In this document: positions 8,491 to 63,083 of the stretch, piece after piece | How positions within the stretch are numbered: the stretch's first letter is position 1 | Layout of the letters: each line of letters starts with the position of its first letter | Assembly: GCA_963555705.1 (NCBI GenBank) | Contig: OY743182.1 | Span: forward strand, 51,774,592-51,838,591 | Direction: 5' to 3' | Origin: Ligustrum vulgare | Taxonomy: Eukaryota > Streptophyta > Magnoliopsida > Lamiales > Oleaceae | Length of the DNA: 64,000 bases | Notes under the pieces: generated by a model | The model's database searches: none | What the model saw: the letters and a program-made list of their open reading frames with translations, nothing else | Told to the model about the DNA's origin: nothing | Translations under genes and position numbers: made by a program

Positions 8491-8795
8491 CTTTTGAGAG
8501 TATAAAGAAAGAAAACTTACGATGAAATGTTATTTTAGGATACATGAGACTGTGAAAGTAATTAGCTTTTTAAACCTAAAAATCTTCACTAACTCACTGC
8601 TCATCTTTTTAAAAAGTGGCTATTTACTTTTGACTAAATGACACTACTTTTGATTACTCTAACATAATGCTCCATGAATTGACACTCTCTTTCAGTGGTA
8701 TCTCATTGACAGTCTGTTAATACACGAAAAATGAAAATATAAAATGCTTTGTTAAAATATGTATGTATACATACACTATACTAATTTACCTCATA

Positions 8796-9335: not shown

Positions 9336-9420
9336 TTTTATGGATCTAATCTTCTTCTCAAATGATCTATTTAAATGCATTATTTAACGCGTAAAGAGCG
9401 GTGGCTCCTTTTTGGCATTG

Positions 9421-10738
9421 ATTTCACCAAGAAATAAGGAATAAAATATAAAAATGTGGGAACAAGAATTATTTTGAGATTATGCCCCCATTACCTTTTT
9501 TCAATGTAATAAAAGAAAATGGAAGATTTGGGGACAAGAATGAGAACATGAAATATTTTCTTGGATATTATTCCTGATTTTTCTCGGTATAATAAAAGAA
9601 ATCAAGCTGTACTGATTTTAACTATTGGACATTCATACGAGTGAAATAAATATTGTATTGAACCAGAAATTCATACGTACAAGTAAAATATATATTGTAT
9701 TGAATCAGAAGTTCATAAATACTGTATTGAACCAAATGTTTATACATAGAAGTGAAATGAAACTGTATTGAAGCAGAAGTTCTATAATGAACGGTTAAAT
9801 AATCTCGATTAAAAGCCTCAAATTATTTGCTATGAGAATAACTTGTATAGAAATTGTTTCTCATGAAGCAATATTCTATATATGTCAATATGATGAAACA
9901 AGGATTAGCTTGAGAAGTTTTATGATTTCAAAAAAGTGTGATATTTATATACACTCTAGCAAAACGCACTTAGATATATGATTGAGATAATATCCCTAAT
10001 TAGAAATGACATGTGTTGCGGCATTTTTAGCCGATTAATATAATATTAGATTTGCGAACATTATGGGAAAACACATGCCTAAAGTGTGATCATACCTGAA
10101 GCACAATGGCATTCGATTCCAAAAAGCAAATGCCTCTTGAATAATGAGATGAAATGGAATCGATAAATAAGTCGACTACATACATTACACAACTCTCTTG
10201 TGAAATTAAGGTTGATTAAATATAAAACAAGTTGACTAAATATAAAAATCCCAATATAGGGATCATTGTTATAGGACCTGAAGTCCAAATACTAAAATGT
10301 GTAAAGTCAGCAGTTATTTGCGCAAATGAAAAATATTACATAGTCGTAAAAGACAACTCGTTGCACACAATTTTTTTTCAAAAAACTGGCATAATATATG
10401 GTGGATGAGACTATAATCTAAATTAATAGCTTTGGCTCTTTGTTATACCTATGAGTGAGAACAAAATGTATGATTCTCATCTCAGTACATTGGGAGTATT
10501 CTTCGATGTACCAGTTGATCGCGGTACGTTGGGATTTCAAGTAAACTGATTATAGATTATATGTCGAAATTGATATTTATTTCAATGATTGATTACTTAT
10601 GCAAATTAGAAATTTTGATTTATAAAATGTAAGAACATACATGTATAATCATTGAAAGATTCAAATATACCCAGAGTAGTATCACTACAGAATGATACAA
10701 ATGGCCCATGATATAACATGTTGAAATTGGAGTATACT
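9421..10738. other. Interior of old copia-like element with short repeats
   Basis: Degenerate ~42-bp units built on 'tattgtattgaaccagaa' occur at about 9619-9790. The rest is AT-rich, with no ORF or RNA gene supported. The gypsy element inserts at its right end. Confidence 0.5.
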
Positions 10739-11521
10739 TGATGAGAATCCAGGGAGTCATTCGAGTCAAAGTCAAACAGGTCAACCCTTTATCAGAATAC
10801 CGGTGGGGCCCATGACAAGATCCAAGGCTAAAGAACTCCAAGAGTCGATGGCGGGACTCATTTTCAAGCTCCGAAATCAAGTTCACATGGAAGAGAGCAA
10901 GATCGAGGTCAATTGCCTAAGTTTTGAAGTTCAGGACATTTCGGTCGACCGAAACTTTGCAGGCTTTTGAGGCATAGCTTCAGGCAGGATCGGCCGACCT
11001 TTGTACAACCGAAACTGCCAATTCGGTCGACCAGTTGTTCGACCGAAATCGTTTCGGTCGACCAGTTGTTCGACCGAAATAGTTTCGGTCGACCAGTTCG
11101 GTCGACCGAAAGTCCCCAGAATAGAATAGCGGGGTTTTTTGTGCAATTTTACAAACTTTCTTTTCTTTCAATTTGTATATCTTCTTGTAAAGCCTCAAAT
11201 CCTAGTTAGTTTTTGGAACATTGAAGAGCACTCCTTGAGAGTTTGAGAGGTAAAAATCATTTCTTTATCTTGTAACATTTTCTTGGAATTTATTTCAACT
11301 TATATATTGAGGGCTTGTTCTTGTGTATTTGTTGATATTTATTCCACAAGTCTTGGTATTTGTCTTAATCTCTCCATTGGGCTAGGGTTAACTTTCCTTA
11401 GAATTTTGGTTAGGTTAAACTTGGGTCAAGATTTCTCATTTATTACCTATTTTAGCTTTCTTGGGTTGATACATTATTGTTGTGGGAATTTTTGGTTTAA
11501 TCACCAAAGGGGTTCGCATCA
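10739..11521 (+). repeat. 5' LTR of the gypsy element
   Basis: 783 bp. It includes the copy of the pol 3' coding end (about 10741-10970) and a palindrome-rich tract (about 10938-11110) built on TTCGGTCGACCGAA. Relative to the 3' LTR it has one extra ~33-bp repeat unit and lacks ~22 bp between two palindromes, which accounts exactly for the 11-bp length difference. Confidence 0.95.
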
Positions 11522-11523
11522 TT

Positions 11524-11535
11524 TGGTATCAGAGC
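11524..11535 (+). promoter_or_regulatory. Primer-binding site (tRNA-iMet)
   Basis: TGGTATCAGAGC, two bases after the 5' LTR, is complementary to the 3' end of plant initiator tRNA-Met, which primes minus-strand synthesis. Confidence 0.95.
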
Positions 11536-11991
11536 TTGGCTCTAAAATTGGTAATCCTATCTTTACATTTATTGTTGTTGTTCTTGATAGTCAAAAAAAA
11601 AAAAAACGAAAATTACAAAAAAATTGGGGGAAATTAGTTGCCCATGAATATTTCATGATTCCTACATATTGGGCATTGTTGTTATCATCAATTTGAAAGT
11701 TTCTTTGGGATACATTTGAACAAACACTTGAAAATTCCAAACTATTCAAGTTGCATCCTAAGTGTTTGACAAAATGTTTCAAAGAGTGTTTCCATATTGA
11801 ATCCTACATTTCAATTACCAAACACATTCCTATTTGAATTCCTTGTGTCTTACATCGAGTTATTGTGTCTATACCCTTGAAAATCTTATTGATCAATTTC
11901 AAATCCTTACTTCCTTGTATAATGGCAAGCAACTAAATTCTACTTTCTATTGTGTCAATCCTTCCCTTTGCTTCCTTTGTTATTACACTCC

Positions 11992-13128
11992 ATGGCTAAT
12001 GCACATACTTCCAGTGGACAAGATTCTAATGCACAAACTCAAGAGTTGAGGGATATGATACAAGCTCTCACGGTTACTATGGCGGACATGGGGGGAAGGT
12101 TGGAGGGTAGATTAGCAAGGTTGGAGACTAGGAGGGAAGTTCCACCTCCAAGGGATGATAATGTTAGGAGGGGTGATAGGAGAAGGCCTAGAGATGAGTA
12201 TGAGGATGATGATGTTGATGATGATGAATTGGAGAGTGAAGGGGGTAGTGACCAAAATTGGAACATGGGTAGGAATAGAGGAGGTAGGAATGTGAGGGGA
12301 GTAGGTCGAGGTCATGGGAGGAACCCTAGGGGTAGGGATGGAGTGGATGGTAACCTTGGAAGTATTAAGATGAAAATTCCTTCTTTCCATGGGAAGAGTG
12401 ATCTGGATGCCTATTTAGAATGGGAGAGGAAGATGGAATTGATTTTTGAATGTCATAGGTACTCCGAGGATAAAAAGGTTAAGTTAGCGGTAGTGGAGTT
12501 TACCGACTATGCCTTAGCTTGGTGGGATAATTTATTACTCACTAGGAGAAGGAATTTCGAGGGTAGTGTGGATACTTGGGATGAGTTGAAGAGCCTTATG
12601 AGAAAAAGATTTGTACCAAGTCACTACTATAGGGGGCTCTATCAAAGACTACAAACTCTTACTCAAGGAACAAAGGGTGTTGAAGATTATTATAAGGAGT
12701 TGGAGAAAGCTTTGATGAGGGCCGACATAGAGGAGGATAGAGAAGCCACTATGGCTCGATTTATGAGTGGGTTGAATAGGGAGGTAGCCAATGTGGTTGA
12801 ATTACACCATTATGTTGAGATGGAGGAGTTGGTACACATGGCTATTAAAGTGGAGGCTCAATTGAAGAAGAAGGAGCAATTTAAAAGAAAGGGACAAGAA
12901 AAATTCTTGGGGGGTCCTAGTTCCAATTGGAAGTCTAAGTGGGGGAGTGAAAGGGTTGATAAGGCACCACTTAAGGACAATATTGAAACCTCCAAGGGAA
13001 AGGAAGTTGGCTTCGTCAGGGATAAACCAAAGGTTGTTCCTACCACTTCTAGGAGTCGGGATATAGAATGCTTCAAGTGTAGAGGGCGGGGGCATTATGC
13101 TAGAGAGTGCCCTAACAATATAGGGTGA
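11992..13128 (+). CDS. Gypsy gag polyprotein
   Basis: 378 codons from the first ATG (MANAHTSSGQ). The N-terminal third is coiled-coil-like, then Asp/Arg-rich and Gly/Arg-rich. A retrotransposon gag core (about residues 125-280; LEWERKMELIFECH, ALAWWDNLL, FVPSHY) is followed by a CCHC zinc knuckle (CFKCRGRGHYAREC, about 13069-13110). Gag forms the virus-like particle and binds element RNA. The ORF ends with TGA at 13126-13128, overlapping by one base the ATG of the next frame. Related elements usually read through as one gag-pol ORF (ending CPNxRVMI), so a 1-nt shift near 13118 is more likely than a natural stop. Confidence 0.85.
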   Translation: MANAHTSSGQDSNAQTQELRDMIQALTVTMADMGGRLEGRLARLETRREVPPPRDDNVRRGDRRRPRDEYEDDDVDDDELESEGGSDQNWNMGRNRGGRNVRGVGRGHGRNPRGRDGVDGNLGSIKMKIPSFHGKSDLDAYLEWERKMELIFECHRYSEDKKVKLAVVEFTDYALAWWDNLLLTRRRNFEGSVDTWDELKSLMRKRFVPSHYYRGLYQRLQTLTQGTKGVEDYYKELEKALMRADIEEDREATMARFMSGLNREVANVVELHHYVEMEELVHMAIKVEAQLKKKEQFKRKGQEKFLGGPSSNWKSKWGSERVDKAPLKDNIETSKGKEVGFVRDKPKVVPTTSRSRDIECFKCRGRGHYARECPNNIG

Positions 13129-13817
13129 TGATTATCAAAAATGGGGAGTGGTACTCGGAAGATGAAGAGGACGAAGAGGGGGTGCCATGTAGAGGAGATA
13201 GTGACGACGAGGAAGAAGAGGTGGAGGGAATTGTTAGTCCACCCAAGTCTTTAGTCACCATTAGGTCTCTCAACACCCAAGCTAAGGTTGATGATGCGGT
13301 TAAGCAAAGGGAGAATATCTTCCATACTAGGTGTCTTGTGAAGGACAAAGCGTGTAGTCTCATCATTGATGGGGGAAGTTGCACCAATGTAGTTAGCACT
13401 AGTATGGTAGAGAGGTTGGGATTACCTTTAATGCCACATCCTAATCCTTATAAGTTGCAATGGTTGAGTGATTATGGTGAGTTGAAAGTAAGCAAGCAAG
13501 TACTACTTATTTTCAACATAGGGACCTATGAGGATCAAGTACTATGTGATGTGGTGCCCATGCAAGCTACACATATATTATTGGGGAGACCATGGCAATA
13601 TGATAGGAGGGTATTGCATGATGGTAGGAAAAATCGGTATAGTTTCCAAATGAATGGAAAACCCGTGACACTCCTACCTTTGAGTCCGGAAGAAGTTTAC
13701 AAGGACCAATTGAAACTCAAGAAGGAGGAGGAGGAGGAAAAAGAAAGAAGAAAAAAAAAGATGGAGTTGAGTGAGGGACAAAAGGAAAGTGAAAAAAAAA
13801 AGAGGGGAAAAAAATAG
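13128..13817 (+). CDS. Gypsy aspartic protease segment of pol
   Basis: 229 codons in the frame following gag. The acidic leader ([13 protein letters not shown]) is followed by a protease core with active-site IIDGGSCTN (about 13362-13388) and [13 protein letters not shown] in place of DTG/DSG is common in plant chromovirus-type elements. The protease would cut the polyprotein inside the particle. The frame ends in an A/G homopolymer region (about 13788-13817) and the RT continues in another frame, so a slippage-type indel is probable. Confidence 0.8.
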
Positions 13818-15935
13818 TGAGAAAAAAAATGAGGGGATGCAAGAAAAAAGAAAGAAAGCAAAAGAGATTGAGAAAAGAATGAATTTTTATGCGAGTAAAG
13901 GTGATGTGGAGAGAGCTTTAAAAGAAAATCATTCTATTCTTTTGATGGTGTATAAGGAGTCCCTCCTTACACTTGACGACCCTCACACTTCCCTCCCCAC
14001 TTTAGCTATTTCTTTGTTGCAGGAGTTCGAGGATGTCTTTCCGGAGGAGATGCCTAGTGGGCTTCCACCCATTAGAGGCATCGAGCATCAAATTGATTTC
14101 ATCCCCGGAGCCGTCATTCCAAATAGACCGGCATACCGAAGCAATCCAGAGGAGACCAAGGAACTCCAAAAACAAGTTGAGGAGTTGATGAGTAAAGGAT
14201 ATGTTCGTGAGAGCATGAGTCCTTGTGCCGTTCCCGTGCTACTAGTGCCCAAGAAGGATGGAACCTTTAGAATGTGCGTCGATTTCCGAGCCATTAACAA
14301 CATAACGGTAAAGTATCGACACCCCATTCCTAGGTTAGATGATACGCTAGATGAGTTGCATGGTTCGTGCATTTTTAGTAAAATCGACTTGAGAAGTGGA
14401 TACCATCAAATTAGGATGAGGGAAGGAGATGAATGGAAAACCGCTTTTAAAACTAAATATGGTTTATATGAGTGGTTGGTTATGCCCTTCGGTCTCACTA
14501 ATGCACCGAGCACTTTTATGAGATTAATGAACCATATTTTGCATGCATTCATTGGGAAATTTGTGGTAGTTTACTTCGATGATATTTTGCTTTATAGCAA
14601 AATTTTGAATGAGCATATTGAACACTTGAGGAGTGTGCTTGTGGTTTTGAAAGGAGAACAATTGTATGCTAACCTCAACAAGTGTAATTTCTGCATGGAG
14701 AGTGTGGTCTTCCTTGGATTTGTAGTTAGTACTAAGGGAATAGAGGTCGATGAGGAGAAGATCAAAGCCATTAAGGAATGGCCCACTCCCACAAGTGCCA
14801 CCGAGGTAAGAAGCTTCCATGGGTTAGCTAGTTTTTACCGTTGTTTTGTCGAGGATTTTAGCACACTAGCTTCACCACTTACCGAGGTTGTCAAAAAGCA
14901 TGTTGGGTTTAAATGGGGGGAGGCGCAAGAAAAGGCCTTTAATGAAATAAAGAACAAATTGTGCACTGCCCCGGTTTTATCCTTGCCTAATTTTGATAAA
15001 ACTTTTGAGATTGAATGTGATGCTTCAGGCACAGGTATTGGAGCAGTTTTGATGCAGGAGAAAAGGCCGATTGCCTACTTTAGCGAGAAGCTCAGTGGAG
15101 CCGCCCTGAACTACCCCACCTATGACAAGGAGCTCTATGGGTTGGTGAGATCGTTAGAGACATGGCACCACTACTTGTGGCCTAGAGAGTTCGTCATCCA
15201 CACCGACCATGAGTCATTGAATCACTTGAAGGGGCAAGGGAAGTTGAGCAAGAGGCATGCCAAATGGGTGGAGTACGTGGAAACTTTTTCCTATGTTATC
15301 AAATACAAACAAGGTAAGGAGAATGTGGTAGCTGACGCCCTTTCTCGAAGGTATGCTCTTATTACTACCTTGAGTGCTAAATTGTTGGGTTTTGAGAGCA
15401 TTAAGGACTTGTATGCGCATGATGCGGATTTTGCTAGTATATTTATATCATGTGAGAGGGTTGGATTTGGTAAGTATTATAGGCATGAGGGGTTTTTGTT
15501 TCGAGAAGGTAAACTTTGTTTGTCAAATTGCTCATTGAGGGAGTTGATGGTAAGGGAGGCCCATGGCGGGGGATTAATGGGTCACTTTGGGGTAAGGAGA
15601 ACCTTGGAAATCTTACAAGAACATTTCTTTTGGCCTAAAATGAGTAGAGATGTTGGGAGAATTTGTTCGAGGTGCATAACTTGTAGGAAGGCCAAGTCCA
15701 AGGTAGAACCGCATGGATTATATACACCCCTACCTGTCCCTAGTGAACCTTGGACGGAAATTTCTATGGACTTCATTTTAGGATTTCCTAGGTCAAAGAA
15801 AGGTAGTGATTCCATCTTTGTGGTTGTAGATAGGTTTAGTAAAATGGCGCATTTCCTTGCTTGTCATAAAACCGATGATGCCATTCATATAGCCGACCTA
15901 TTCTTTAGGGAGATAGTGCGACTCCATGGGTTCCT
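13818..15935 (+). pseudogene. Gypsy RT, RNase H and integrase N-terminal part
   Basis: The open frame spans 13771-16080, but only to about 15930 is it the real one. It shows RT blocks ([23 protein letters not shown], catalytic [12 protein letters not shown] near 14572), RNase H ([17 protein letters not shown] near 15010, HTDHESL, ADALSRR near 15330), the integrase HHCC finger (H near 15580, [11 protein letters not shown] near 15664-15700) and the first catalytic Asp (MDFILGFPR near 15763). One base is missing at 'catgggttcctagg' (about 15926-15940). After it the frame yields nonsense and the integrase continues in frame 3. In life the enzyme copies RNA to DNA and integrates it into the nucleus. 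Confidence 0.9.
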
Positions 15936-16889
15936 AGGAGCATTGTGTCGGATAGGGACGTTAAATTCCTTAGCCACTTTTGGAAGGTCTTGTGGGGGAA
16001 ATTGGGAACTAAACTTTTGTTTTCAACAACTTGTCATCCCCAAACCGATGGCCAAACTGAGGTGGTTAATAGAACTTTAACACAACTTCTTCGCATCGTC
16101 CTTAAGGGCAACCTAAAGAATTGGGAAGAATGTTTACCTTTTGTTGAATTTGCATATAATCGAAGTGTTCATTCTACTACTTCTTTTTCTCCATTCGAGA
16201 TTGTTTATGGTTTTAACCCTCTAACTCCTTTGGATTTGATTCCGTTACCTATTGATGAACGAGGTAGTTTAGATGGGAAAAGAAAGGCGGAGTTGGTAAA
16301 ATCTCTCCACGAGAAAGTCAAGCTCCAAATCGAGAAGAAGAACGAACAATATGCCTCCAGTGCCAACAAAGGTAGAAAACGAATGACATTTGAGGTCGGT
16401 GATTGGGTATGGTTGCATTTGAGGAAGGAGCGGTTCCCGAATCAAAGAAAATCAAAACTACAATCACGTGGTGATGGCCCCTTCCAAATCCTAGAGAAAA
16501 TCAATGACAATGCCTACAAGCTTGACCTTCCTGGTGAGTACAATGTATCGGCTTCTTTTAACATCTCTGACTTATCCCCTTTTGATGCAGGTGAAGATTC
16601 GAGGTCGAATCCTTTTCAAGAGGGAGGGGATGATGAGAATCCAGGGAGTCATTCGAGTCAAAGTCAAACAGGTCAACCCTTTATCAGAATACCGGTGGGG
16701 CCCATGAAAAGATCCAAGGCTAAAAAGGTCCAAGAGTCGATGGCGGGACTCATTTTCAAGCTCCGAAATCAAGTCCACATGGAAGAGAGCAAGATCGAGG
16801 TCAATTGCCTAAGTTTTGAAGTTCAGGACATTTCGGTCGACCGAAATGTCCTATGGTCGACCGAAACTCTGCAGGCTTTTGAGGGATAG
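15936..16889 (+). pseudogene. Gypsy integrase C-terminal part, extending into the 3' LTR
   Basis: This frame resumes the integrase core: second Asp (SDRDVKFL near 15945) and catalytic Glu ([10 protein letters not shown] near 16040-16065), then the GPF/Y-like stretch (RGDGPFQILEKINDNAYKLDLP). It passes through the purine tract and across the LTR boundary at 16631 without a stop and ends at 16889. The LTR-encoded tail holds IPVGPMKRSKAKKVQESMAGLI, similar in style to the C-terminal CR motif of CRM elements (recognition, not alignment). No canonical chromodomain is seen. Confidence 0.8.
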
Positions 16890-17402
16890 CTTCAGGCAGG
16901 ATCGGCCGACCTTTGTACAACCAAAACTGCCAATTCGGTCGACCAGGTGTTCGACCGAAATAGTTTCGGTCGACCAGTTCGGTCGACCGAAAGTCCCCAG
17001 AATAGAATAGAGGGGTTTTTTGTGCAATTTTGCAAACTTTCTTTTCTTTCAATTTGTATATCTTCTTGTAAAGCCTCAAACCCTAATTAGTTTTTGGAAC
17101 ATTGAAGAGCACTCCTTGAGAGTTTGAGAGGTAAAAATCATTTCTTTATCTTGTAACATTTTCTTGGAATTTATTTCAACTTATATATTGAGGGCTTGTT
17201 CTTGTGTATTTGTTGATATTTATTCCACAAGTCTTGGTATTTGTCTTAATCTCTCCATTGGGCTAGGGTTAACTTTCCTTAGAATTTTGGTTAGGTTAAA
17301 CTTGGGTCAAGATTTCTCATTTATTACCTATTTTAGCTTTCTTGGGTTGATACATTATTGTTGTGGGAATTTTTGGTTTAATCACCAAAGGGGTTCGCAT
17401 CA
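16631..17402 (+). repeat. 3' LTR of the gypsy element
   Basis: 772 bp, starting directly after the polypurine tract and ending GTTCGCATCA before the TSD. Palindromic TTCGGTCGACCGAA-type words cluster at about 16830-16995. Confidence 0.95.
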
Positions 17403-30500: not shown

Positions 30501-33500
30501 GATTTCGCATTTGTAGCGCCCCGAGTTCCGTATACCCGATTCACTACGTCATTTTCTGTCTAAATTTTTCGAATAATATTTTTGCGGAAGAAATAATTGA
30601 AATTCATTTTTGGCAACATTAAATAAACTGTAATGGCCGCTAAAATTGAAAACATTTATGAAACCATTTGAAATAGTAAATCGAACCATTAATATTGTAA
30701 AGAAATTGCCAATATCATAATTTCTCAAATAAATGAACTTCTCTAAATTATTCGATTGTTTGGAAAATACGGAAATCATTAACGTCAAACTTTCAACCGT
30801 TCAACGATTATTGCCACCATCATTCATCGCTCGCCACCGTCTCCGAAACCTGCAAAACTGTTAAAAGTAGGGTGAGTATTTCATGGGGGAAATACTCAGT
30901 AGACTCATCGCAAATTAATTTAATTTATAAGATGATTAAACACATAAATCCCGGCTCTTTATAAAACGGGCATTGATAGAGCTTCTTTATAAAACTGTTC
31001 TTGATAAAACTCATATTGTGCATTACAGCACGGGACATATTTTGCAAATCATATGCTCTTTGAAAACATCTCTTTGAAAACAGTTCTTTGAAAACCATAT
31101 ACTTATAAAACATTTTAATTATGCCAAGCATAATTTCTTTTGAAAGCATAACATAAGATAGGATTTAAATCCTCATAAACATAAGAATTTTACCGAACTT
31201 AGGTGGTAAGAATTCTTATGTAGTAAAATCATAATAACAGTAAGTTTTCATCATAACATAGGATAAAATCGAAATCCTCATAAACATAAGAATTTTACCG
31301 AACTTAGGTGGTAAGAATTCTTATGTAGTAAGTATACCAAGCATAATTTTTCTGAAATTCATAGGGATCAATTGCATCATAACATAAGATAGGATCGAAA
31401 TCCTCATAAACATATGCGACAGGAATTTTACCGAACTTAGGTGGTAAATCCTCATAAACATATGGAAAGATAGGAATTTTACCGAACTTCGTGGCAAATC
31501 CTCATAAACATAGGAGACACAAGAATGTTACCGAACTTAGGTGGCAAGAATTCTTATGTGTAGCGCTACTAAAACTCCGGTCCCCTTAACATATCATAAC
31601 TTATCATATGGGACCCAAAACAATCTTGGTAGATTGATTTCATAGCAATGATCCAAAAAAACATTTTCGTGAAGCATAGGGTATACTTACTTTTCGTAAA
31701 AACATAAAGTATATTTTCTTTTCATAAAAAAAACATACTTACTTTTCATAACAACATAAGGTATATTTACCTTTCATAAAAACATACTTGTTTTTCTTAA
31801 AAATTGACTTTCACAAGTCACATGACATTCATATGAAATCATAATTTAAATCAATTAATAAGTGCGAGTCTACCTCAAATCCGACGAGTGCAAAGTTGAG
31901 CGGGAATGACTTCAATTTCTTTAAATTCTCCGTACGCTTCGTCTTAGCCAATAAGTCACTTTAGTATATCGAATATATAGTTCAAAATGATAAATTATAA
32001 TTTGAGGACTAAAATTGATGTTTTGAAAGTTGAAGGATTAAAATGAATACTTTTGAAAGTTCAGGGACTAAAATAGATATTTTGAAAGTTGAGGGATTAA
32101 AATGAATACTTTTGATAGTTGAGCTTAAAAGTAAATCAGCAGGGACTGAAATGATAAGTTTGAAGCTAAAAGGACTGAATAAAACCTTTTTAAAGCTTTG
32201 AGGCTGAAATGGATGAGTTTAAAACAGTAGGGACTGAATTAAAACAATTTAAAACATCAGGGACTGATTTGCAAATTCTGGAAATATATCATTCAGATCT
32301 TTTACTCTCTCTCTCATTCATATCGATTTCACTCTCTCTCTCTCACAACTCGATCCAAGCTCTCTCTCTCTACCATTCTCTCACTCTCACGAAACGGAGG
32401 CTGCGAAGATCTGATTCTCCGATCTACAGTCGGCGATGTGCCGGCGTAAGGTGCGGCAAAGAAGGGGTTCCGGTTTTGAAAGAGTTTGGTGTGAGATGGG
32501 GATAAAAACCGAGGCTAAACTAGGCTTGAATCGCGATTAATCTCCGGTATTAAATCTGGCAGCGAAGGGCTTAAGGTTGAGGTAAGTATTTGGGTATTCT
32601 ATTTCTTTGGTTTTGGGTTTTGTTTTGGGTTTTGATTTGGGGATTGTGGAGTTGAAATTTTGGGTCGGAGGTTACGGTGGTGCGCGGACTTGGGCAGTAT
32701 TGCAGCGGTGGTGGTGTGATGAAGCTGGGTGGCCGCCGTGATGAAAATGATTGATTTCCTGTGGTTTGTGTATTCGGCTATGGGTTGCAGGTCGTGACTG
32801 TGGAGGTTGGTGACTGGTGGTCCAATTAGTTGTTCGGTGATAAACTGTGGTGATGGATTGTTGATGATGATGCAGTGTAGATGGTGGCTGGTGATGTTGA
32901 TTTTTTTGCAGTGATGAAACAGTGATGGCTTGCTGTTTCGGTTAGTTGCAAATTTGGCAGTGGTGGGTTTTGAATTGATAACTGTTGTGATGTCCTTAGG
33001 TGAATACGGTGAAACTGCCATTGGTGTTTCTTTGTTTGAGTAATGGTTATGAGTTGTAGTTGCTGCTGCAGATGGTTGGCGATGGCTGGATTGAGGAGTG
33101 CTGGTTGACCGTGGCTTTATGAATTGGCTGTGAATTGATTTCTTGGAGGTGTGACTGAGTTGTGTGATGGTGATTGAGGGTAGTGAACTGTGATGGTGGC
33201 TATTGTGTGATCGATATTGGAGGTTGGTAATGGAGCTGCTGGTGGTTCGCTGGTGCTGGTGATGAGATGATGAAGATGGGTTGTGAAATGGATGTTGAAT
33301 TGGAGAGGCAGGGGAGAAGTGTGGGCTAGACTATAAAAGGGGAGGAGGAAGATGACTTTCGGCGATAAAGGAAAAAGGTGCAGGGTTGTGGGGTTGGTCA
33401 GTGATGATGATAAAGATTCACAATCATTCAGAGTTGTGGGGTGATGTATAAAGAGAGGAGGCATATGACTTGAAAAGAAAAAAGAAAGAAAAGAAAATGG

Positions 33501-36500
33501 TTAATAGGGAACATGGGAAACATTAGAATAGAGGAAAAATCGTGGGTGGAAATGTAGGTTGGATAAATTTTTGATTATGATAAATATTGGACTAACTTTG
33601 ATTATGAAACGTATTTAAAACAGATACATTTTGGACTGAAAATGAATTTGAAAATAAATAAATATTGATATAAAAATTGAATTACGTATTTGGACTTAAA
33701 ATAATTTGAATAAGGAAAATTGAGATATTTTAATAAATTTGGAATTCAAAATGATTTTGAAAATAATACTTTGAATAAATAATTAAAATAACATAATTTT
33801 AGAAATTCGGATTTTAATTTAAAATCGAACAATTCGATATTTCTTGACTTGGCTAGACGAATCCGTCGCGGCGTTGACTTCAAAATAATAAATGAAATAG
33901 TAGCGACACGATTTTCTAAATATTAAAATAATTATTTATTGCATAAAAATTCTGGATCGCTATAATCTTACCTCCTTAAAATAATTTCGTCCTCGAAATT
34001 AAACTTACTTAATCTTATAATTTCTGAATACTTAATCAGAATCTCTTCTTCTTATCATCGAATATTCTCAAAATAATCAAAACAATTCCCAATCGTATGT
34101 AAAAATTTCATCATATCTTGTAGTATTCATGTAACTAGTCACTTATCATCGTATCATGTGACCTCAAATATTTGTATATATCTCTAAAATTTCAACAAAT
34201 CTTTCCAATATTTGTAACCCAAAATTCAGTAAACAAATATCTCCCAAAACTAAGATTCTATACTTAAATGTCACCACATTTCCTGCAAAGTATTTCTTTC
34301 ACTTGTATATACGTATGAATTCTGATTCAATACGGTACTCATTTTACTTTCCACGTATCATCACACTATACCAAGATTATCATTATTAAAACAAAATATC
34401 AGTACCCATAATCCAAGAAAATATTCCAAATCTCCAATCAAATCTCCTTTATCGATAAAATTTAACAGCGCATTACTTCTTGTCTCCTCTTTTCATTAAA
34501 ATAATCCTGCGCTTTCTTGGTGGTCACAACATCACGCGGATTCACTCAGATCCTTGCGCTTTTAAATAGTTAATGCTGGGAAGAGGTTGAATCATCAAAC
34601 AATGGATATCATCCTTTCTAACATTCGCAAGTATTATTCCAGTCTTCCTATGAATGATCTGAGAAAGATCTATAAAATAAGGCTCGAAAGATTGAGGTTG
34701 CTAATGGCTCATGATATTCCAGAAGATGTTCGCTGGTTGATAGAAGCAAAGGTTCGACTATCTGGTGAATTACCATCAACATTTCCAAAACATATGCCTG
34801 GTTTAGGCAAAAGCACGTTCGCAAAGAAACGAAGAGCAAAAAGACTGGGTGGTTGCTACAAATGTGCTCGTTGGAACTGTAATACACGTTGCAAATCAGT
34901 AGGATATTCTTCTACTAATCGGGATGATAAAATCGAATTCATAAAGGGTGGACTGAGTAAGGAGTCTTTGGATGATATTCGACTGACTCTTGAGACGCAC
35001 CCAAGTGGTTATGTACAACGTGAACTTCTCTCCTTATACGCTCAGTTTAACGAGGACAAAAATCGTTATAGTCTCCAAAATATAATATCGAAAGATCCTG
35101 TTTGCCAGTCTGTTTTACAAAATGAGGCTTCTGGCAGTTCAGCAATGTTATAAGGTAAATCTTTTAAAATATTTTGCTGCTTACTTTCACGCGTTTTGAA
35201 AATAAAATATATTTTCCTTTTCTCGAGTTTTGATAAAGCTGGAAATAAAATATTAAATCGCCGAAAGGTGACAGCCTCGATACGATAAAAATATTCAAAA
35301 GTGGGCTGATTTTGTCAAAAGTAAATCTTTACTTTTTCAGAATCAATCAAAAACAGTAAAATTTTTTTTTTTTTTCCGGCTTTAAATAGCCAAACATATT
35401 TCATAGTTCAGGCATCCCAAAATCACATCTTCTTCGTAAGTTTTCCCTTCTTTACTATCAAAGATGGAAGCACCAAAACTTCGACAGATCAAAACTATTT
35501 GTGTATTTTGTGGATCAAAAGTAGGGAAAGGCTTCGGTTATCTAGAAGCGGCTGTAGATCTTGGAAAGAAACTGGGGGAAAAAGGTATCACTCTTGTATA
35601 TGGGGGTGGTAGCAGTGGTCTAATGGGTTGCGTTTCCCAATCTGCTCTTGCAGAGAAATCAAAAGTAATCGGTGTTATACCTGTCCCTTTGGTAGATGTT
35701 GCAGGCAAAACACGAGGGCATGAAGTTCAAACCTTATCCATCCATGAACGCATAACTTGTATGCTATATGGTTCTGATGCCTTTATAGCCCTGCCCGGAG
35801 GTTTTGGTACCTTAGAAGAAATCTTTAACATTACCTCGTGGGCTCAACTAGATCTCCATACTAAGCCTATTGGGCTTCTGAATGTTAACAATTTCTTTGA
35901 TGGTTTGTTAACCTTTCTTGATTATGCTGTGGAACAGGGATTCATCTCTCCATTTTCCAGAAGGCTTCTTATTTCTGCTCCTACTATTGATGAACTACTG
36001 GATAAGCTGCAGTCATATATCTCAATACAAGATCCAGCAGGAGTTAAGATAGATTGGTCGCAAGGAAGGGGAATCAAGCGAAAATGGAGTCCGGTTAATG
36101 TAAACTTAACTCTTTGAATCTTAGAATAGGTGGGGGTAGAGTACGGAGTATTCTCACTCTCGAGACACCCCTCCATTTACTAGGATTTCCTTCATGTTTA
36201 AATCTTGTGTGTACTTCAAAGATTCCAGGTGGTAGATTACGGAGTATTCTTACTCTCGAAACACACCTCTTTGAAGGTTTCTTTATTTCCTCAAAAGATC
36301 AGAGGTGGTAGGATACGGCTACTCCGGAAACACATCTCTCATTCTGAGGATCTTTCCATGTTTTTCTCTTATGCTTTCGTGTGTTTCATGTATTTCCTTT
36401 CCAGTGTGACTCTTGTGTGTTCTCCTTATGAGAAAATAATAAAATCTCTGCTATCATCTACTAAATCTCGTTTGTGATGTAAATGATCTTGCATGTCTAA

Positions 36501-39500
36501 CCTTAATTCCTTTAGTGGATGCTTATCATATTATGCTCTTAATTCCAAATGATAAAATTCTGGATAGAGTCTCCCTTGTAATTTGGACTTATCCAAACCA
36601 TAAGCATACTTCAAAACTCACAATAATAAATAACTCCACATTTGATCACAACGATCTAAAAATATTGAAAATGATTCCAACACTTCAATATCATCAAAAT
36701 ATCCCATAATTCAATTCATAATTCCTCAACATAGAAATTTCAAATCATATTTTTCAATATCACAATATTACTTCCTTCCATACCTTAATTGGCTCAAAAG
36801 TTACTCATACTTATAAATATATGCCATAAATCATGTTCCCAAAATTTATTCACAAAGCCAAACTTCATAATAAATTTCTCTTCAACATAGAGGCATAATA
36901 AATTAACTCAACATAATATCCATTACTTAATTCTCAATAAAATCATATTATTCCCATTATGCTCAACACTCGTTTTCTTTTAAAAATTTCTCATACTCAT
37001 ACATTAAAGCATATAAGTTATGACAAAGCATAACAACATCATTATTTTCGAAGAAATACATTCTTATTTCTCATAAATCATAAGTATCCGAAATACTCTT
37101 CATTCTTTCTCATAAATCAATAAAATGAGTATTCGAAATACTGAAATAACTTTAAACATCATAAACTTCTTTACCTCGGAGTTGGTGGAACGAATGATGG
37201 CAGTGGCAATCTTCATCAATAAAATTTTTATAATGGAAAATATTTCTTGAAAATTCTTTTTGAAAATTTTTCCAGTCTACAGAAACGCAGACTAGCTCTG
37301 ATACCAACTTGTAGCGCCCCGAGTTCCGTATACCCGATTCACTACGTCATTTTCTGTCTAAATTTTTCGAATAATATTTTTGCGGAAGAAATAATTGAAA
37401 TTCATTTTTGGCAACATTAAATAAACTGTAATGGCCGCTAAAATTGAAAACATTTATGAAACCATTTGAAATAGTAAATCGAACCATTAATATTGTAAAG
37501 AAATTGCCAATATCATAATTTCTCAAATAAATGAACTTCTCTAAATTATTCGATTGTTTGGAAAATACGGAAATCATTAACGTCAAACTTTCAACCGTTC
37601 AACGATTATTGCCACCATCATTCATCGCTCGCCACCGTCTCCGAAACCTGCAAAACTGTTAAAAGTAGGGTGAGTATTTCATGGGGGAAATACTCAGTAG
37701 ACTCATCGCAAATTAATTTAATTTATAAGATGATTAAACACATAAATCCCGGCTCTTTATAAAACGGGCATTGATAGAGCTTCTTTATAAAACTGTTCTT
37801 GATAAAACTCATATTGTGCATTACAGCACGGGACATATTTTGCAAATCATATGCTCTTTGAAAACATCTCTTTGAAAACAGTTCTTTGAAAACCATATAC
37901 TTATAAAACATTTTAATTATGCCAAGCATAATTTCTTTTGAAAGCATAACATAAGATAGGATTTAAATCCTCATAAACATAAGAATTTTACCGAACTTAG
38001 GTGGTAAGAATTCTTATGTAGTAAAATCATAATAACAGTAAGTTTTCATCATAACATAGGATAAAATCGAAATCCTCATAAACATAAGAATTTTACCGAA
38101 CTTAGGTGGTAAGAATTCTTATGTAGTAAGTATACCAAGCATAATTTTTCTGAAATTCATAGGGATCAATTGCATCATAACATAAGATAGGATCGAAATC
38201 CTCATAAACATATGCGACAGGAATTTTACCGAACTTAGGTGGTAAATCCTCATAAACATATGGAAAGATAGGAATTTTACCGAACTTCGTGGCAAATCCT
38301 CATAAACATAGGAGACACAAGAATGTTACCGAACTTAGGTGGCAAGAATTCTTATGTGTAGCGCTACTAAAACTCCGGTCCCCTTAACATATCATAACTT
38401 ATCATATGGGACCCAAAACAATCTTGGTAGATTGATTTCATAGCAATGATCCAAAAAAACATTTTCGTGAAGCATAGGGTATACTTACTTTTCGTAAAAA
38501 CATAAAGTATATTTTCTTTTCATAAAAAAAACATACTTACTTTTCATAACAACATAAGGTATATTTACCTTTCATAAAAACATACTTGTTTTTCTTAAAA
38601 ATTGACTTTCACAAGTCACATGACATTCATATGAAATCATAATTTAAATCAATTAATAAGTGCGAGTCTACCTCAAATCCGACGAGTGCAAAGTTGAGCG
38701 GGAATGACTTCAATTTCTTTAAATTCTCCGTACGCTTCGTCTTAGCCAATAAGTCACTTTAGTATATCGAATATATAGTTCAAAATGATAAATTATAATT
38801 TGAGGACTAAAATTGATGTTTTGAAAGTTGAAGGATTAAAATGAATACTTTTGAAAGTTCAGGGACTAAAATAGATATTTTGAAAGTTGAGGGATTAAAA
38901 TGAATACTTTTGATAGTTGAGCTTAAAAGTAAATCAGCAGGGACTGAAATGATAAGTTTGAAGCTAAAAGGACTGAATAAAACCTTTTTAAAGCTTTGAG
39001 GCTGAAATGGATGAGTTTAAAACAGTAGGGACTGAATTAAAACAATTTAAAACATCAGGGACTGATTTGCAAATTCTGGAAATATATCATTCAGATCTTT
39101 TACTCTCTCTCTCATTCATATCGATTTCACTCTCTCTCTCTCACAACTCGATCCAAGCTCTCTCTCTCTACCATTCTCTCACTCTCACGAAACGGAGGCT
39201 GCGAAGATCTGATTCTCCGATCTACAGTCGGCGATGTGCCGGCGTAAGGTGCGGCAAAGAAGGGGTTCCGGTTTTGAAAGAGTTTGGTGTGAGATGGGGA
39301 TAAAAACCGAGGCTAAACTAGGCTTGAATCGCGATTAATCTCCGGTATTAAATCTGGCAGCGAAGGGCTTAAGGTTGAGGTAAGTATTTGGGTATTCTAT
39401 TTCTTTGGTTTTGGGTTTTGTTTTGGGTTTTGATTTGGGGATTGTGGAGTTGAAATTTTGGGTCGGAGGTTACGGTGGTGCGCGGACTTGGGCAGTATTG

Positions 39501-42500
39501 CAGCGGTGGTGGTGTGATGAAGCTGGGTGGCCGCCGTGATGAAAATGATTGATTTCCTGTGGTTTGTGTATTCGGCTATGGGTTGCAGGTCGTGACTGTG
39601 GAGGTTGGTGACTGGTGGTCCAATTAGTTGTTCGGTGATAAACTGTGGTGATGGATTGTTGATGATGATGCAGTGTAGATGGTGGCTGGTGATGTTGATT
39701 TTTTTGCAGTGATGAAACAGTGATGGCTTGCTGTTTCGGTTAGTTGCAAATTTGGCAGTGGTGGGTTTTGAATTGATAACTGTTGTGATGTCCTTAGGTG
39801 AATACGGTGAAACTGCCATTGGTGTTTCTTTGTTTGAGTAATGGTTATGAGTTGTAGTTGCTGCTGCAGATGGTTGGCGATGGCTGGATTGAGGAGTGCT
39901 GGTTGACCGTGGCTTTATGAATTGGCTGTGAATTGATTTCTTGGAGGTGTGACTGAGTTGTGTGATGGTGATTGAGGGTAGTGAACTGTGATGGTGGCTA
40001 TTGTGTGATCGATATTGGAGGTTGGTAATGGAGCTGCTGGTGGTTCGCTGGTGCTGGTGATGAGATGATGAAGATGGGTTGTGAAATGGATGTTGAATTG
40101 GAGAGGCAGGGGAGAAGTGTGGGCTAGACTATAAAAGGGGAGGAGGAAGATGACTTTCGGCGATAAAGGAAAAAGGTGCAGGGTTGTGGGGTTGGTCAGT
40201 GATGATGATAAAGATTCACAATCATTCAGAGTTGTGGGGTGATGTATAAAGAGAGGAGGCATATGACTTGAAAAGAAAAAAGAAAGAAAAGAAAATGGTT
40301 AATAGGGAACATGGGAAACATTAGAATAGAGGAAAAATCGTGGGTGGAAATGTAGGTTGGATAAATTTTTGATTATGATAAATATTGGACTAACTTTGAT
40401 TATGAAACGTATTTAAAACAGATACATTTTGGACTGAAAATGAATTTGAAAATAAATAAATATTGATATAAAAATTGAATTACGTATTTGGACTTAAAAT
40501 AATTTGAATAAGGAAAATTGAGATATTTTAATAAATTTGGAATTCAAAATGATTTTGAAAATAATACTTTGAATAAATAATTAAAATAACATAATTTTAG
40601 AAATTCGGATTTTAATTTAAAATCGAACAATTCGATATTTCTTGACTTGGCTAGACGAATCCGTCGCGGCGTTGACTTCAAAATAATAAATGAAATAGTA
40701 GCGACACGATTTTCTAAATATTAAAATAATTATTTATTGCATAAAAATTCTGGATCGCTATAGCATTGCCAATCTTCGCGTCGTGAATCTTGGGTCAAGG
40801 TCCTATCGTCAATTTTATCATTCCAGTATTTTAATTCTCGTGTTCTTGTTTATTTTCGTGTTTGATCTGATTTAGATATTTTCTAGGTTTTAATTGTGTT
40901 ATTTCCGCGTGTTTGTCGAGATTCCCCGATTGGGATCGCGTCACCATCTTTTAAGGGTAAGAGTTAGTGGTCCCTTGATTCTTTTGGGCTTCTATGTAGG
41001 AGTCTTGTTTTTATGCTTTGATTGACCTTGAAAAAGGTCTCATTGTTATTAACCATGCTCATTTATTTGCAGTTCAACTGTCCCACAGATTTTCTTGGCT
41101 AGTTTTCCAGAGGGGTATTAGAATTTCTGAATCATTGTTCCCTTCAAGGCATGTGATTTGTAAAGAATATCGACACAAATGTGGGAAATCCAGGAAATTG
41201 TGGGTCTCCACTGCTGGAAAATCTGTTGAACTTTGCTTTGGAAAAAAAAAATACTTTATGTTATGTACACATGGCATAAGTGTTACTGGCGTTTTAGGAA
41301 TAACACAATATTTGAAGGAAAATATGGCTTATTTGTCCCTGTGGGATGAGGCTAGATTTTAGCTTCTGTTTCAGGCTTTCAGCATTTATAAATAAGGAAT
41401 TTAAGGATTTCCTGTTGTCACTTTTAATTAGAAGTGTCTTTTGATGTAGTTTGTATTTGTATGTTTTAGATGTTAAGAGGATGTAATATCCATCGAGTCT
41501 GATTTGCTAGTAAATGAAACTAAGCTTTTAAAAATAAATTATTTCTTCCAGTACAAAAAAAAAAAAAAAAAGTTTCACAAGGCTCCTGGCATTTTTTTAA
41601 GCAAATGTAAAAACAGTGACAGAGTGCAATGACATACTATTTTGGAGCATGGATAAAAGTGCCTCAAGGAACTCTCTCTCTCTCTCTCGCTTTCAATCTC
41701 TACATGAAATCTTGAATTAATCATCCACGTACATTTCCTATATCTTCTTAACACATAGATCAAGTACCCAGCAGGAAAAATAAGTGAACTTACTCACTAC
41801 CAAAATAATTAATTAATGAGGATAAGAAAAAGCTCAGTTACTCATGTTGATTAGATGTATAGAAAACAGTCTGAAATGAAACTACCCCACATTTCTCCCT
41901 CCCGAAGGTTTGAAATAAAAATTTGCTCACTAACAGCAAAGAAATGCATTTTTCATTTATGCCAGTGCATCAAAGAACGCAGTATCTGGATGATCCATTT
42001 TTCAGTCAAACAAACACGCCTGCAGCATGTCTATATAATGATGATTATTAGGCCTGAAACCTACAACAGTGTTAGATGAAGAGTTGTGAATCAGATTCGG
42101 TTGATCCCAGACTACAGACAACTCTCCTGACACAGATTGTCTAACCCAAATGGAAGTTTGAAATAAAAAAAAATGCACACATAAAAAATCTAGTATGGAT
42201 AAATAGATGAAGAGAAAGAGAAAATTCTTACTGTATAAACCCTTCAAAAATGGATGATAACCACGATTGAGCTCGGTGATGACCTCTAGCTGAGGATTGT
42301 TTTCTTTAAATGCTGGCAATTGAGATTCCATAAATGCCCTAAACAAAATGAATGAATGAAATAATTAATCATGTTGCTAGCCTGTTGAATGAGATCATTA
42401 AAAAGAAACATTGATCCTTTTCCTCCATTAGGCATTAGATAACAGAGCGCCATTCTATTTTAATTTCTATCTGAATGATAATATTGTTGATTGTTATTTG

Positions 42501-49112: not shown

Positions 49113-49525
49113 ATTTAGGTGATGCATTAATTTCTTGGAAAAGTAAGAAATAAGATCGTGTTTCTAGATCCTCTACTGAGGCAGAGTATTGTGTCATGTC
49201 CGCGGGTTGTTCTAAAATCGTATGTCTCTTAGTCTTCTTGAGGAGATTGAATTTAGGTAATGCATTAGTTTCTTGGAAAAGTAAGAAACAAGACCATGTT
49301 TCTATATCCTTTACTGAGACAAAGTATCGTGTCATGTCTGTTGCCTGTTATGAAATTGTATGGCTTCGTGGTCTTCTTGAGGAGATTGAGTTTAGGTGAT
49401 GCGGTTTCTTGGAAAAGTAAGAAACAAGACCGTGTTTCTAGATCCTTTACTCAGACAAAGTATCGTGTCATGTCTGCTGCATGTTCTAAAATTGTATGGC
49501 TTTGTGGTCTTCTTGAGGAGATTGA
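49113..49525 (+). repeat. Triplicated RNase H segment (138-bp unit)
   Basis: Three tandem copies beginning near 49113, 49251 and 49390. The unit is 138 bp (46 codons), so duplication keeps frame, although small indels have since shifted it. Copies share 'tttcttggaaaagtaagaaa' and 'cttcttgaggagattga'. Confidence 0.9.
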
Positions 49526-49850
49526 GTTTCCTCATACCACTCCACTTCCTCATGTTGATAACACTAGTATTATTCAGATTGCAACAAATCCCATCTTCCA
49601 TGAACACACCAAACAAATTAAGGTTGATTGTCATTATATTCGTAATACCTTGGAAAATCAAGTGATATCGCTGCCTTACATTTCTTCTGATTTCCAAGTA
49701 CCTGATGTCTTCACTAAAGCCATGACTCGACAGCGACATCAATTTCTTGTCGGAAAATTGTTGTTGGTTGACTTACCAACGTCAATTTGAGGTTAAGGTA
49801 TACAATTTAGGTCATTCTCTATTATTTGTATATAGCCTAAAGATAAGGGA

Positions 49851-60662: not shown

Positions 60663-63083
60663 ATTTCGGATTCTCAAAGTAATAACCACCCTAACCCTAG
60701 CACTACAGCACGTACAAGTGTTGGTAGTAGTACTAGACAAGTACCACCCAATGACCATAATAATGATGTTGATCAGCCCCCACAAGAATCTCCAGTACAA
60801 GTAGATGCGTGTCAAGATCCAATTGAACTTAGTGAAGAGGAGAACAATAGAAATGAACGTGTTGGTGCGAAGAGAAAGTCCAGATTTCATTCACTGGTAT
60901 GGAAAGATTTTGAGAGAGTAAAAATTGGAGACGATTGGAAGGCCGTTTGCAACCATTGCAAGGCTAAATTAGTTGGCGATACTAGCAAAGGTACAAGTCA
61001 TTTGAAAAACCACATCAAATGATGTCCTCTTCGTAGACAAGTAAATAGTAATACTCGGCAAGGAATATTGAATTTCACAAAGTGGTAAATGTAGGATGAA
61101 TACGTACACATTTGATCAAGAAAAGTGTAGGACTAGTCTAGGGAAGGCTATTGTTTTACATGAATATCCAGTGTCCATAGTTGATCACATTGGGTATAAA
61201 AACTTTTTGAATGACCTCCAACTGATGTTCAAGGTCCCTTCTCGTAATACCATTAAGAGTGACATTTTGAAAATGAATGACTACGAGAAATCCAAAATGA
61301 TGACAGCATTGGAGGAGAATGTGAGTCGAATTGAAGTCACTACAGACATGTGGACCGCCTCAAATCAAAAGAAAGGATTCATGGTAGTAACATCCCATTA
61401 CATAGATGATTCCTGGACTCTACAGAGTCGCATTATGAGGTACATTAATGTTATAAAATATCTAATATAGCTTGCTTTTATTTTTTACAAGTTTAATTTT
61501 ATTTCATTTTTCTTTTATAGGTTTGTGTATGTTCCATGTCCACATACTGCAGATGTGTTATCCCAAAATTTAGTTGGTCGCTTACTTGATTGGAACATCG
61601 ACCGTAAGTTATCTACCTTAATTGTAGATAATTGCACAACAAATGATGCCATGATAAATCTTATTTTAAGTGAGCTTCATAGTCATACTCTTTTGTTGGG
61701 TGGTGAGCTATTTCATATGCAATGTTGTGCACACATACTAAATTTGATTGTGAAAGACGGTTTGGATGTGATTTCATCAAGTGTGGAGAAAATTAGGGAT
61801 AGAGTTTCCTACTGGACAGCTACACCTAAGAGATATGAGAAATTTGAACAATTTGCACGTCAATTAAAAGTAAGGTGTGAGAAAAAATTGATGCTTGACT
61901 GTAAGACTCGGTGGAACTCGACCTACCTCATGCTTCGTACTGCCTTACTATATAAGGATGTTTTCCCTCGTTTGAAGCAACAGGAGACCCAATATAAATG
62001 TCTACCTAGTGATGACGATTGGGAATTGGCTAAAGAAATAAGTGCTAGATTAGAGGTATTCTTTACGGTGACTGAATTGTTTTCTGGCACGTCTTATCCA
62101 ACTGCTAATACGTTTTTTTCCAAATGTTTGTGCAATAAAGTTTCCGTTGTATAAGTGGCTTGAATCTCCTTATCGGGTGATTCAAATGATGGCTACTAGT
62201 ATGATTGATAAGTTTAACAAATATTGGAGTGAGATTCATGGAATTTTGGCCTTGGCAACAGTGTTGGATCCTAGGTATAAGATGAAACTAGTAGAGTATT
62301 ATTACCCTCTAATTTTTAAAGAACAATCTTCATACGAGATTGAAAAACTTTGTGACCTTTGTCAGAGGTTGGTGCAAGAGTATGATGGATTACAGAATTC
62401 TAGTGGCAATGTTTCTAATTCTTCTAGTCATTATCAGCCAGAGTTGTCTACTAGTATAATGGAGTGTCTATTGGAGGGATTTTATGAATTTGTTTCTACT
62501 ACCTCTACTTCTGGCAATGTGAAAACTGAACTTTATCATTTTTTGGAAGAGCCTATATTGCCTCGGTCAAATGATTTTGACATTTTAGTATGGTGGAAGG
62601 TAAATGCAATCAAATATCCTACCTTGTCTAAAGTTGCACGGGACGTGTTGGCCATTCCGGTGTCTACTGTGGCATTAGAATCCACTTTCAGTACTAGTAG
62701 CAGGTTTTTGAGTCCACACCGGAACATGCTTCACCCCAAAACCTTGGAGGCATTGATGTGTGCTAAAGATTGGTTATGGGCCGAAATTCACAGTAAGACA
62801 TTCCATTTATATTTGATATGGCATACTGGCATTTTAACTCTTAAGTTAATGTGTTTAATGACTAAATATTTATGTTTTTTTTATAGAAAATTCAACTCCT
62901 TCTCAATACGTCGGATGTTGCACAAGGTTCAGTGACGAGAAAATTGAGGAGGTAAGTGTAATGTCCATTTCATATCATTTAAAAAACAATTTAAGTAATG
63001 TTATATGAAACATACCTATTTTCTTATTTCAGGAACTGTCTGCTGTCGTCTCTAGCTCAAACATGGACACTCTTGATTCTTGA
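60663..63083 (+). pseudogene. hAT transposase (BED zinc finger, RICESLEEPER-like), disrupted
   Basis: BED finger (WKDFERVKIGDDWKAVCNHCKAKL, then HLKNHIK) ends in a stop at about 61019, followed by a frame break near 61085. DUF-type core: YTFDQEKCR, TDMWTASNQKKGFMVVTSHYI. Intron 61440-61520 (GT-AG) joins IM to RFVYVPCPHTADVL, TLIVDNCTTND, MQCCAHILNLIVKDGL, TRWNSTYLML. One extra T in the run near 62113 shifts the frame; the next frame continues with FPLYKWLESPYRVIQMM and the C-terminal dimerisation domain (VWWKVNAIKYPTLSKVARD, VALESTFSTSSRFLSPHRN). Introns 62793-62886 and 62952-63032 lead to a terminal stop at 63081-63083. hAT transposases cut and paste DNA; this copy is inactive unless the breaks are bypassed. 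Confidence 0.9.

Follow-up and report, generated by a model that had tools for sequence, protein, structure and literature searches.

The window analysed here, a stretch of 64,000 nucleotides of Ligustrum vulgare (GCA_963555705.1, contig OY743182.1), contains what is very probably a helper-dependent LTR retrotransposon that carries two selected accessory genes in antisense orientation, one encoding a protein of a viral nucleic-acid-binding family (NABP, ORF 1) and the other an intronless LOG with an EAR-like tail (ORF 2). The features of the element, together with an older copy of the gene pair in the same window, are as follows.

30507–30511, no strand: target site duplication GCATT, left copy (sequence reading)
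30512–33964, minus: 3' LTR of the element, window-left, 3453 bp, identical to 37310–40762
33965–33981, minus: polypurine-like tract TTTTAAGGAGGTAAGAT adjoining the 3' LTR (sequence reading)
34561–34569, plus: TTTAAATAG, possible TATA box of ORF 1 (9-mer count not above chance)
34602–35153, plus: ORF 1, viral-NABP-family protein, 183 aa from ATG, antisense to the element (Pfam)
34854–34892, plus: zinc-finger-like C-x2-C-x4-C-x3-C, residues 85–97 of ORF 1 (alignment A1)
35381–35389, plus: TTTAAATAG, possible TATA box of ORF 2 (sequence reading)
35464–36117, plus: ORF 2, intronless LOG, 217 aa, antisense to the element (Pfam)
36076–36114, plus: LOG C-terminal tail KRK-WSP-VNVNLTL, basic stretch and EAR-like end (tail comparison)
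36126–36345, plus: three imperfect repeats 3' of LOG, with similar ones in the decayed copy
36438–36443, plus: AATAAA, possible poly(A) signal of the predicted LOG transcript (sequence reading)
37295–37306, minus: primer binding site TGGTATCAGAGC, 3 nt behind the 5' LTR
37310–40762, minus: 5' LTR of the element, window-right, identical to 30512–33964
40763–40767, no strand: target site duplication GCATT, right copy (sequence reading)
7670–9694, minus: older decayed NABP–LOG copy, 72–75% identical at the DNA level, both ORFs broken by stops and frameshifts

The initial annotation had described two intact ORFs on one strand in a mobile cassette, and had proposed for them either the endogenised end of an RNA virus carrying a LOG taken from its host or a plant cassette assembled by retrotransposition. 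Both ORFs are present as described, 310 nt apart, and the mobile unit is borne out by two flanking LTRs that the annotation had missed, which show 0 differences over 3453 bp when the window is compared with itself and their limits are read. The direct LTRs, the 5-bp target duplication and the primer binding site are those of an LTR retrotransposon. The site TGGTATCAGAGC, which we take to be of the initiator Met tRNA type, has 3 matches at no more than one mismatch in the window against 0.13 expected, and the purine tract at 33965–33981 is presumably the PPT, assigned by its resemblance to plant Ty3 elements. Since TGGTATCAGAGC lies behind the right LTR and the purine tract before the left LTR, the sense strand of the element is the minus strand; ORF 1 and ORF 2, both on the plus strand, are thus antisense to it. 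Gag and pol are absent from the 3.3-kb interior; apart from ORF 1 and ORF 2, 30512–40762 holds no ATG ORF above 140 aa, two ORFs of 140 and 115 aa have no Pfam match, and a scan of the interior against Rfam gave no match up to E 0.5. As such, the carrier (30512–40762) is a non-autonomous LTR retrotransposon of the LARD type with Ty3/gypsy-like signals. At the commonly used rate of 1.3e-8 per site and year, one difference in 3453 bp corresponds to about 11,000 years; the complete identity of the LTRs thus marks the element as very young.

Other mobile sequences lie in the same window. A further Ty3/gypsy element occupies 10739–17402; it has frames for gag and pol, LTRs that are 92% alike and a primer site at 11524–11535, and self-comparison of the window found no match between its LTRs and those of the NABP–LOG element. 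A hAT transposase remnant of two frames lies at 61525–62935, the second frame matching Dimer_Tnp_hAT (1.8e-31) and the first having no Pfam match, and a 136-bp unit is repeated three times at 49113–49529, in an ORF without a Pfam match and within the apparent end of a polyprotein that we assume, from its look, to be copia-type.

ORF 1 is a virus-type NABP, as had been proposed. It carries the basic arm GKSTFAKKRRAKR and the finger C85-x2-C88-x4-C93-x3-C97, of which C88 and C93 are invariant, and C85 and C97 conserved in at least 90%, across the 27 rows of alignment A1. Residues 16–120 match PF05515 (Viral_NABP) at 3.4e-7 with 30.9 bits (curated cut-off 23), PF01623 (Carla_C4) matches at 5.1e-6 with 26.8 bits (curated cut-off 20.9), and the two families are likewise found at E 0.01 in 25 and 24, respectively, of the 27 relatives in A1. 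The best match in BFVD comes from Grapevine Kizil Sapak virus, presumably a betaflexivirus; it is an RNA silencing suppressor with 39% identity over 59 columns but an E-value of 0.66. The predicted NABP structure is poor (pLDDT 68.1), which counts against our preferred explanation, and fold searches with this model gave no significant match. The box TTTAAATAG noted upstream of each ORF in the initial annotation does occur at both places; however, this 9-mer appears 4 times in the AT-rich window against 2.3 expected, and at least 4 times in 18 of 100 shuffles, so that it was rejected as a meaningful common box, its copies being plausible as TATA-like boxes. A scan for bacterial-type promoters and terminators over 34400–36500 remained at shuffle level and was uninformative.

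The family match of ORF 1 fits the idea that the pair is the endogenised 3' end of an RNA virus with a captured host LOG, all the more as betaflexivirus genomes carry their NABP gene near the 3' end. However, the pair is enclosed by LTRs, target duplication and primer binding site, with a polypurine-like tract beside the 3' LTR, it exists in many near-identical copies in the assembly, and within the element no polymerase, movement or coat ORF lies beside it. In addition, a relative of ORF 1 is found behind a Ty3/gypsy integrase (contig L001, see below), and two scans of IMG/VR with the NABP, the second using two peptide patterns, yielded 7 and 143 pattern stretches and 0 relatives. A viral end is thus largely refuted and would be very surprising here; an endogenised betaflexivirus was rejected, as other viral genes next to the NABP were not found and LTRs are present. 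The plant cassette of the initial annotation comes nearer to the truth than the virus, although the pair looks less like a one-off retrocopy than like a long-standing component of retroelements that is kept by selection.

ORF 2 was correctly recognised as a LOG. Its match to PF03641 (1.3e-33) identifies it, at the level of sequence, as an intact member of the cytokinin riboside 5'-monophosphate phosphoribohydrolase (LOG) family, and the nearest solved structure is that of At2g37210. It contains PGGFGTLEE, and over 28 aligned rows R96 is nearly invariant and E118 and E119 are invariant; we take the conserved Arg and Glu to have a catalytic role. The exact form PGGxGTxxE is missing in 10 of the 107 LOG relatives of 205–225 aa among the matches listed. 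Ordinary plant LOG genes normally have introns, whereas ORF 2 has none.

The C-terminus sets these LOGs apart. The EAR motif, which recruits TOPLESS-type corepressors, is defined as LxLxL or DLNxxP, and LxLxL occurs within the last 15 residues of 92 of the 120 LOG relatives listed (it is missing in 28), with a basic stretch ahead of it in 89 of the 120 and KKRKLDLTLSL as a typical end. In contrast, neither the LxLxL tail nor its combination with a basic stretch was found among the 120 listed LOGs of LOG1/3 type. The window LOG itself ends in KRKWSPVNVNLTL, a degenerate EAR-like form, VxVxLxL (VNVNLTL), and SPVNVNLTL is present in four of five old copies from the same genome, those readable at the tail. 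Both this imperfect form and the 28 relatives without LxLxL count against our preferred explanation. A LOG tree of 53 rows, sampled from these subfamilies (33 rows that we name element-type, 19 of LOG1/3 type, and LOG8), separates the element-type LOGs from the others by a branch supported at 100/100, so that a single old capture suffices. Behind the LOG, in the young and the decayed copy alike, the repeats may form a short hairpin, which was weakly better than shuffles in five stretches (z −0.04 to −1.94); with folding this weak, RNA hairpins were rejected as an account of these repeats.

The element has amplified recently. Copies were sought in the assembly of 1,384,917,791 bases on 51 contigs, in searches whose first-look candidates are not copy numbers. 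ORF 1 as query gave 8,795 such candidates; the 150 scored lie on 18 contigs, and every one of them is full length, free of stops and 99–100% identical. The non-coding query 36460–37300 gave 1,823 candidates, and the 40 scored are likewise 99–100% identical. Neighbouring NABP copies form 23 pairs on the same strand at a spacing of 6.2–6.9 kb, as expected for arrays with common LTRs. Triple runs spaced at 6.5–6.9 kb were seen at C2:76948056–76961667, C5:20669350–20683660 and C8:22921778–22935491, as if elements were joined through common LTRs, and one locus (L030, G000:C21:7514378), which has the region behind the LOG but only 25 bases of the LOG and no NABP, is a truncated or recombined element.

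The pair is also old. The decayed copy, read from 9694 to 7670 on the minus strand and missed by the initial annotation, retains TTTAAATAG at 9367–9375 (minus) and has TTTAAAAAG at about the place of ORF 2's box, and a tandem repeat at 7664–7866 behind its LOG resembles the repeats at 36126–36345. Used as a query, it gave 4,125 candidates, of which 40 were scored, its own place included; 30 other places at 80–86% identity span nearly all 1,690 bases of the pair, and the remaining nine are partial or fragmented. Since such older places hold nearly the whole pair, NABP and LOG have travelled together for a long time.

LOG is under purifying selection, and NABP is so less cleanly. Codons were compared with the window copy at 46 loci (L002–L039 and L070–L077, with L011 being the window copy), 45 of which contain the LOG, which played no part in choosing the loci. 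Among distinct LOG codon changes in the 45 sampled copies, 22 are silent and 5 are replacements, one of them a stop (dN/dS about 0.07, one-sided p 5.6e-10); each replacement is confined to one copy, while 14 silent changes are common to at least two copies. For NABP there are 9 silent and 3 replacement changes (p 1e-4), in a sample that is biased, as 16 of the 46 loci had been selected for being the top NABP matches, and in 29 others (L010–L039) coverage is limited to the last third. In addition, we compared five old copies, namely the decayed copy of the window and the next four places by match list, all five with stops. Against each other, their differences at codon positions 1/2/3, summed over ten pairs, are 252/213/243 for NABP and, with a slight third-position excess, 278/245/313 for LOG. 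Where the five agree and the window copy differs, the counts are 16/7/37 for NABP and 8/3/27 for LOG. Thus, dead copies drift, and the lineage that is still mobile preserves both proteins.

These counts bear on the view that NABP and LOG are passive passengers, transduced once, whose intact frames merely reflect a recent burst. As the scored copies are 99–100% identical, intactness by itself is indeed weak evidence of function. However, mere passengers would not account for the 22:5 ratio in LOG, nor for the 14:0 ratio among its common changes; the silent excess recurs on the branch to the old copies, for which the near-even differences among the old copies serve as a control, and full-length predicted relatives about 50–70% identical occur in several plant orders. 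We therefore give passive carriage little credence. If an element depends on a helper, selection on its proteins would require cis-preference or few masters, which counts against our preferred explanation. Another alternative is a domesticated pair at a host-selected master locus, from which mobile copies were spun off; selection without gag and pol is easier to explain for a host gene, and the family could descend from a small number of master copies. Such a host pair is nevertheless unlikely, since the relatives are multicopy, with 38 of the 120 listed LOG rows coming from Reevesia pubescens, and the 150 scored NABP copies are spread over 18 contigs. A helper-dependent retrotransposon with two selected genes of its own remains the explanation that we prefer.

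Relatives of both proteins are found in rosids and asterids. ORF 1 has 352 relatives at E 0.01, from 404 candidates; those named among the 120 matches listed come from Orobanche hederae, O. gracilis, O. minor, Striga hermonthica, Populus, Acer and Xanthoceras, and the remaining ones listed are unnamed contigs; the named relatives closest to ORF 1 belong to Orobanchaceae. ORF 2 has 7,214 relatives at 1e-10, the best 120 of which include named ones from Xanthoceras, Diospyros, Reevesia, Diplodiscus, Populus, Parasponia and Primulina. Many of the LOGs annotated as host genes in Reevesia and Diplodiscus have the element-type tail and may be retroelement genes, in which case counts of the LOG family there may be inflated. 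The wide distribution of the plant NABP family in rosids and asterids would also suit a transfer of the NABP from plant retroelements to betaflexiviruses, or an older source common to both; this is compatible with our preferred explanation, although we consider it rather doubtful.

The initial annotation had asked whether the pair recurs side by side, and had named as findings that would speak against it either the lack of a viral NABP profile match together with a clear match to a conserved plant family, or adjacency nowhere else. Its proposal withstood both: the profile matches are given above, and adjacency is found in the older copies of the same genome as well as in three Orobanche gene models (P0017, P0018 and P0022), in which NABP and LOG domains are fused in one protein and which thus place the two next to each other in that genus. 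In these models the NABP is joined to a piece of a LOG, and the annotation presents what are probably element genes as genes of the host. In addition, NABP and LOG matches fall on equally long contigs of at least 1450 nt in 5 pairs (8723, 4511, 2128, 1558 and 1514), against 0.45 expected and at most 3 in each of 200 shifted controls, which is indirect evidence that both lie on the same contigs; the 1514-nt pair is the weakest, its proteins coming from different sources (jgi and ena). Before this length filter there were 9 pairs, where the shifted controls averaged 2.8 and reached 8 at most; those at 873, 905 (twice) and 1018 nt were dropped as too short for both full ORFs.

A possible source of the pair is indicated by L001 (DAIEQH010000041.1), a plant-like contig of 3,330 bases that is filed under a Nomurabacteria MAG and is probably plant retroelement contamination of a public genome record. 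A frame of 466 codons, which ends at 1594, encodes the H2C2 and integrase core domains of a Ty3/gypsy integrase and is followed about 190–200 nt behind and in the same sense by an intact NABP (start 1787 or 1799) that is 67% identical to ORF 1; no LOG was found between this NABP and the contig end. From sequence features we take both the integrase of L001 and the gag found with its relative in the own genome, L082, to be Athila-like. Two Athila-like elements similar to LOGL4 were reportedly described by Steinbauerova et al. in 2011. With the L001 integrase as query, the assembly of the window gave 31,051 candidates, of which 91 were scored (best 73%), and neither NABP nor LOG was found within 1.5 kb of the Athila-like integrase at any of 30 own-genome loci, so that the Athila-like elements of this genome were rejected as carriers. 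The evidence for an Athila origin thus consists of the single contig L001 and the published LOG domains of Ty3/gypsy elements from Citrus and Populus. On this evidence, the pair may derive from sequence lying behind pol in Athila-like elements, into which an NABP, from betaflexiviruses or in common with them, and a host LOG would long ago have been incorporated.

As to what the two genes do, we tentatively propose, while giving it less than even chances, that silencing suppression and cytokinin together help the element to spread. ORF 1 and ORF 2 would be transcribed antisense from promoters of their own. The NABP may dampen RNA silencing, act as a nuclear regulator, or both, like the carlavirus NABP p12, and the LOG would increase active cytokinin in the cell, while its tail may direct the enzyme into the nucleus and towards corepressors of the TOPLESS type. 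The cytokinin that LOG produces stimulates meristems, and both proteins together could favour dividing, weakly silencing cells of meristem or germline, in which helper proteins would copy the element. A helper-dependent retroelement with two acquired effectors that aid its spread, one a virus-type silencing suppressor or regulator and the other a cytokinin-activating LOG that an EAR tail would make nuclear and corepressor-binding, is a conceivable picture rather than an expected one. If true, it would mean that plants harbour selfish DNA which interferes with their hormone state as well as with silencing, and that the module is common to retroelements and perhaps the source of the NABP for RNA viruses.

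Two aspects of the element are already in print, namely LOG domains in Ty3/gypsy elements and antisense extra ORFs, one of which has its own promoter. In PMC9289625, a LOG (YgdH) domain is listed for Ty3/gypsy consensuses of Citrus sinensis and C. clementina and, without the copy filter, of Populus trichocarpa, and Steinbauerova et al. 2011 is cited there. These cases are alike in having a LOG-family domain as an extra, and Populus LOGs are among the matches of ORF 2; however, in the relevant part of that paper (section 12) neither an NABP partner nor a tail nor a test for selection is mentioned, and the present carrier lacks gag-pol. Extra antisense ORFs are described, in the portion of PMC7264820 concerned with them, for Grande, in which the ORF has its own promoter, and for RIRE2, Retand and PvRetro13. 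These share with the present element an extra ORF antisense to it, but are gag-pol elements with the ORF between pol and the 3' LTR, and their ORFs have no clear protein similarity except for an SMC domain in PvRetro13, whereas here two clear families are present. A further related case is that of the Phalaenopsis Ty3/gypsy elements with an ALKBH5-like RNA demethylase ORF (PMC9289625), in which a retroelement also gained an enzyme ORF of a domain known in betaflexiviruses too, although the enzyme is another one, the element has gag-pol, and the case concerns one orchid genus.

On the viral side, the p12 of chrysanthemum virus B is described in PMC7588395 as a nuclear transcriptional activator and cytoplasmic silencing suppressor, and Chiba et al. 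2011 found a betaflexivirus replicase-like sequence in cucumber in a paper (PMC3136472) whose relevant text contains no NABP terms. In the portions of the open-access literature that concern such elements, we found no report of the NABP partner, the pair in an element without gag-pol, the LOG tail or the selection.

What the extra ORFs in LTR elements of plants do is not settled. Here both ORFs have recognisable families, the LOG is open to enzyme assay, and the signal of selection indicates that both matter despite the missing gag and pol. That the pair is kept by selection hints that a genomic parasite uses both genes for spreading; the element thus offers a case in which the use of a plant hormone pathway by a transposon can be tested, as well as a lead on the origin of betaflexivirus NABPs. 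ORF 1 resembles the carlavirus and vitivirus NABPs in its profile match over about 105 residues and in its basic arm and Cys finger, but those belong to RNA viruses, whereas ORF 1 sits in a retrotransposon beside a LOG. LARDs have long LTRs, PBS, PPT and many copies without gag-pol, and their interior is regarded as non-coding. The present element shares their long LTRs, PBS, PPT-like tract, many copies and lack of gag-pol, but in place of a non-coding interior it encodes two proteins under selection.
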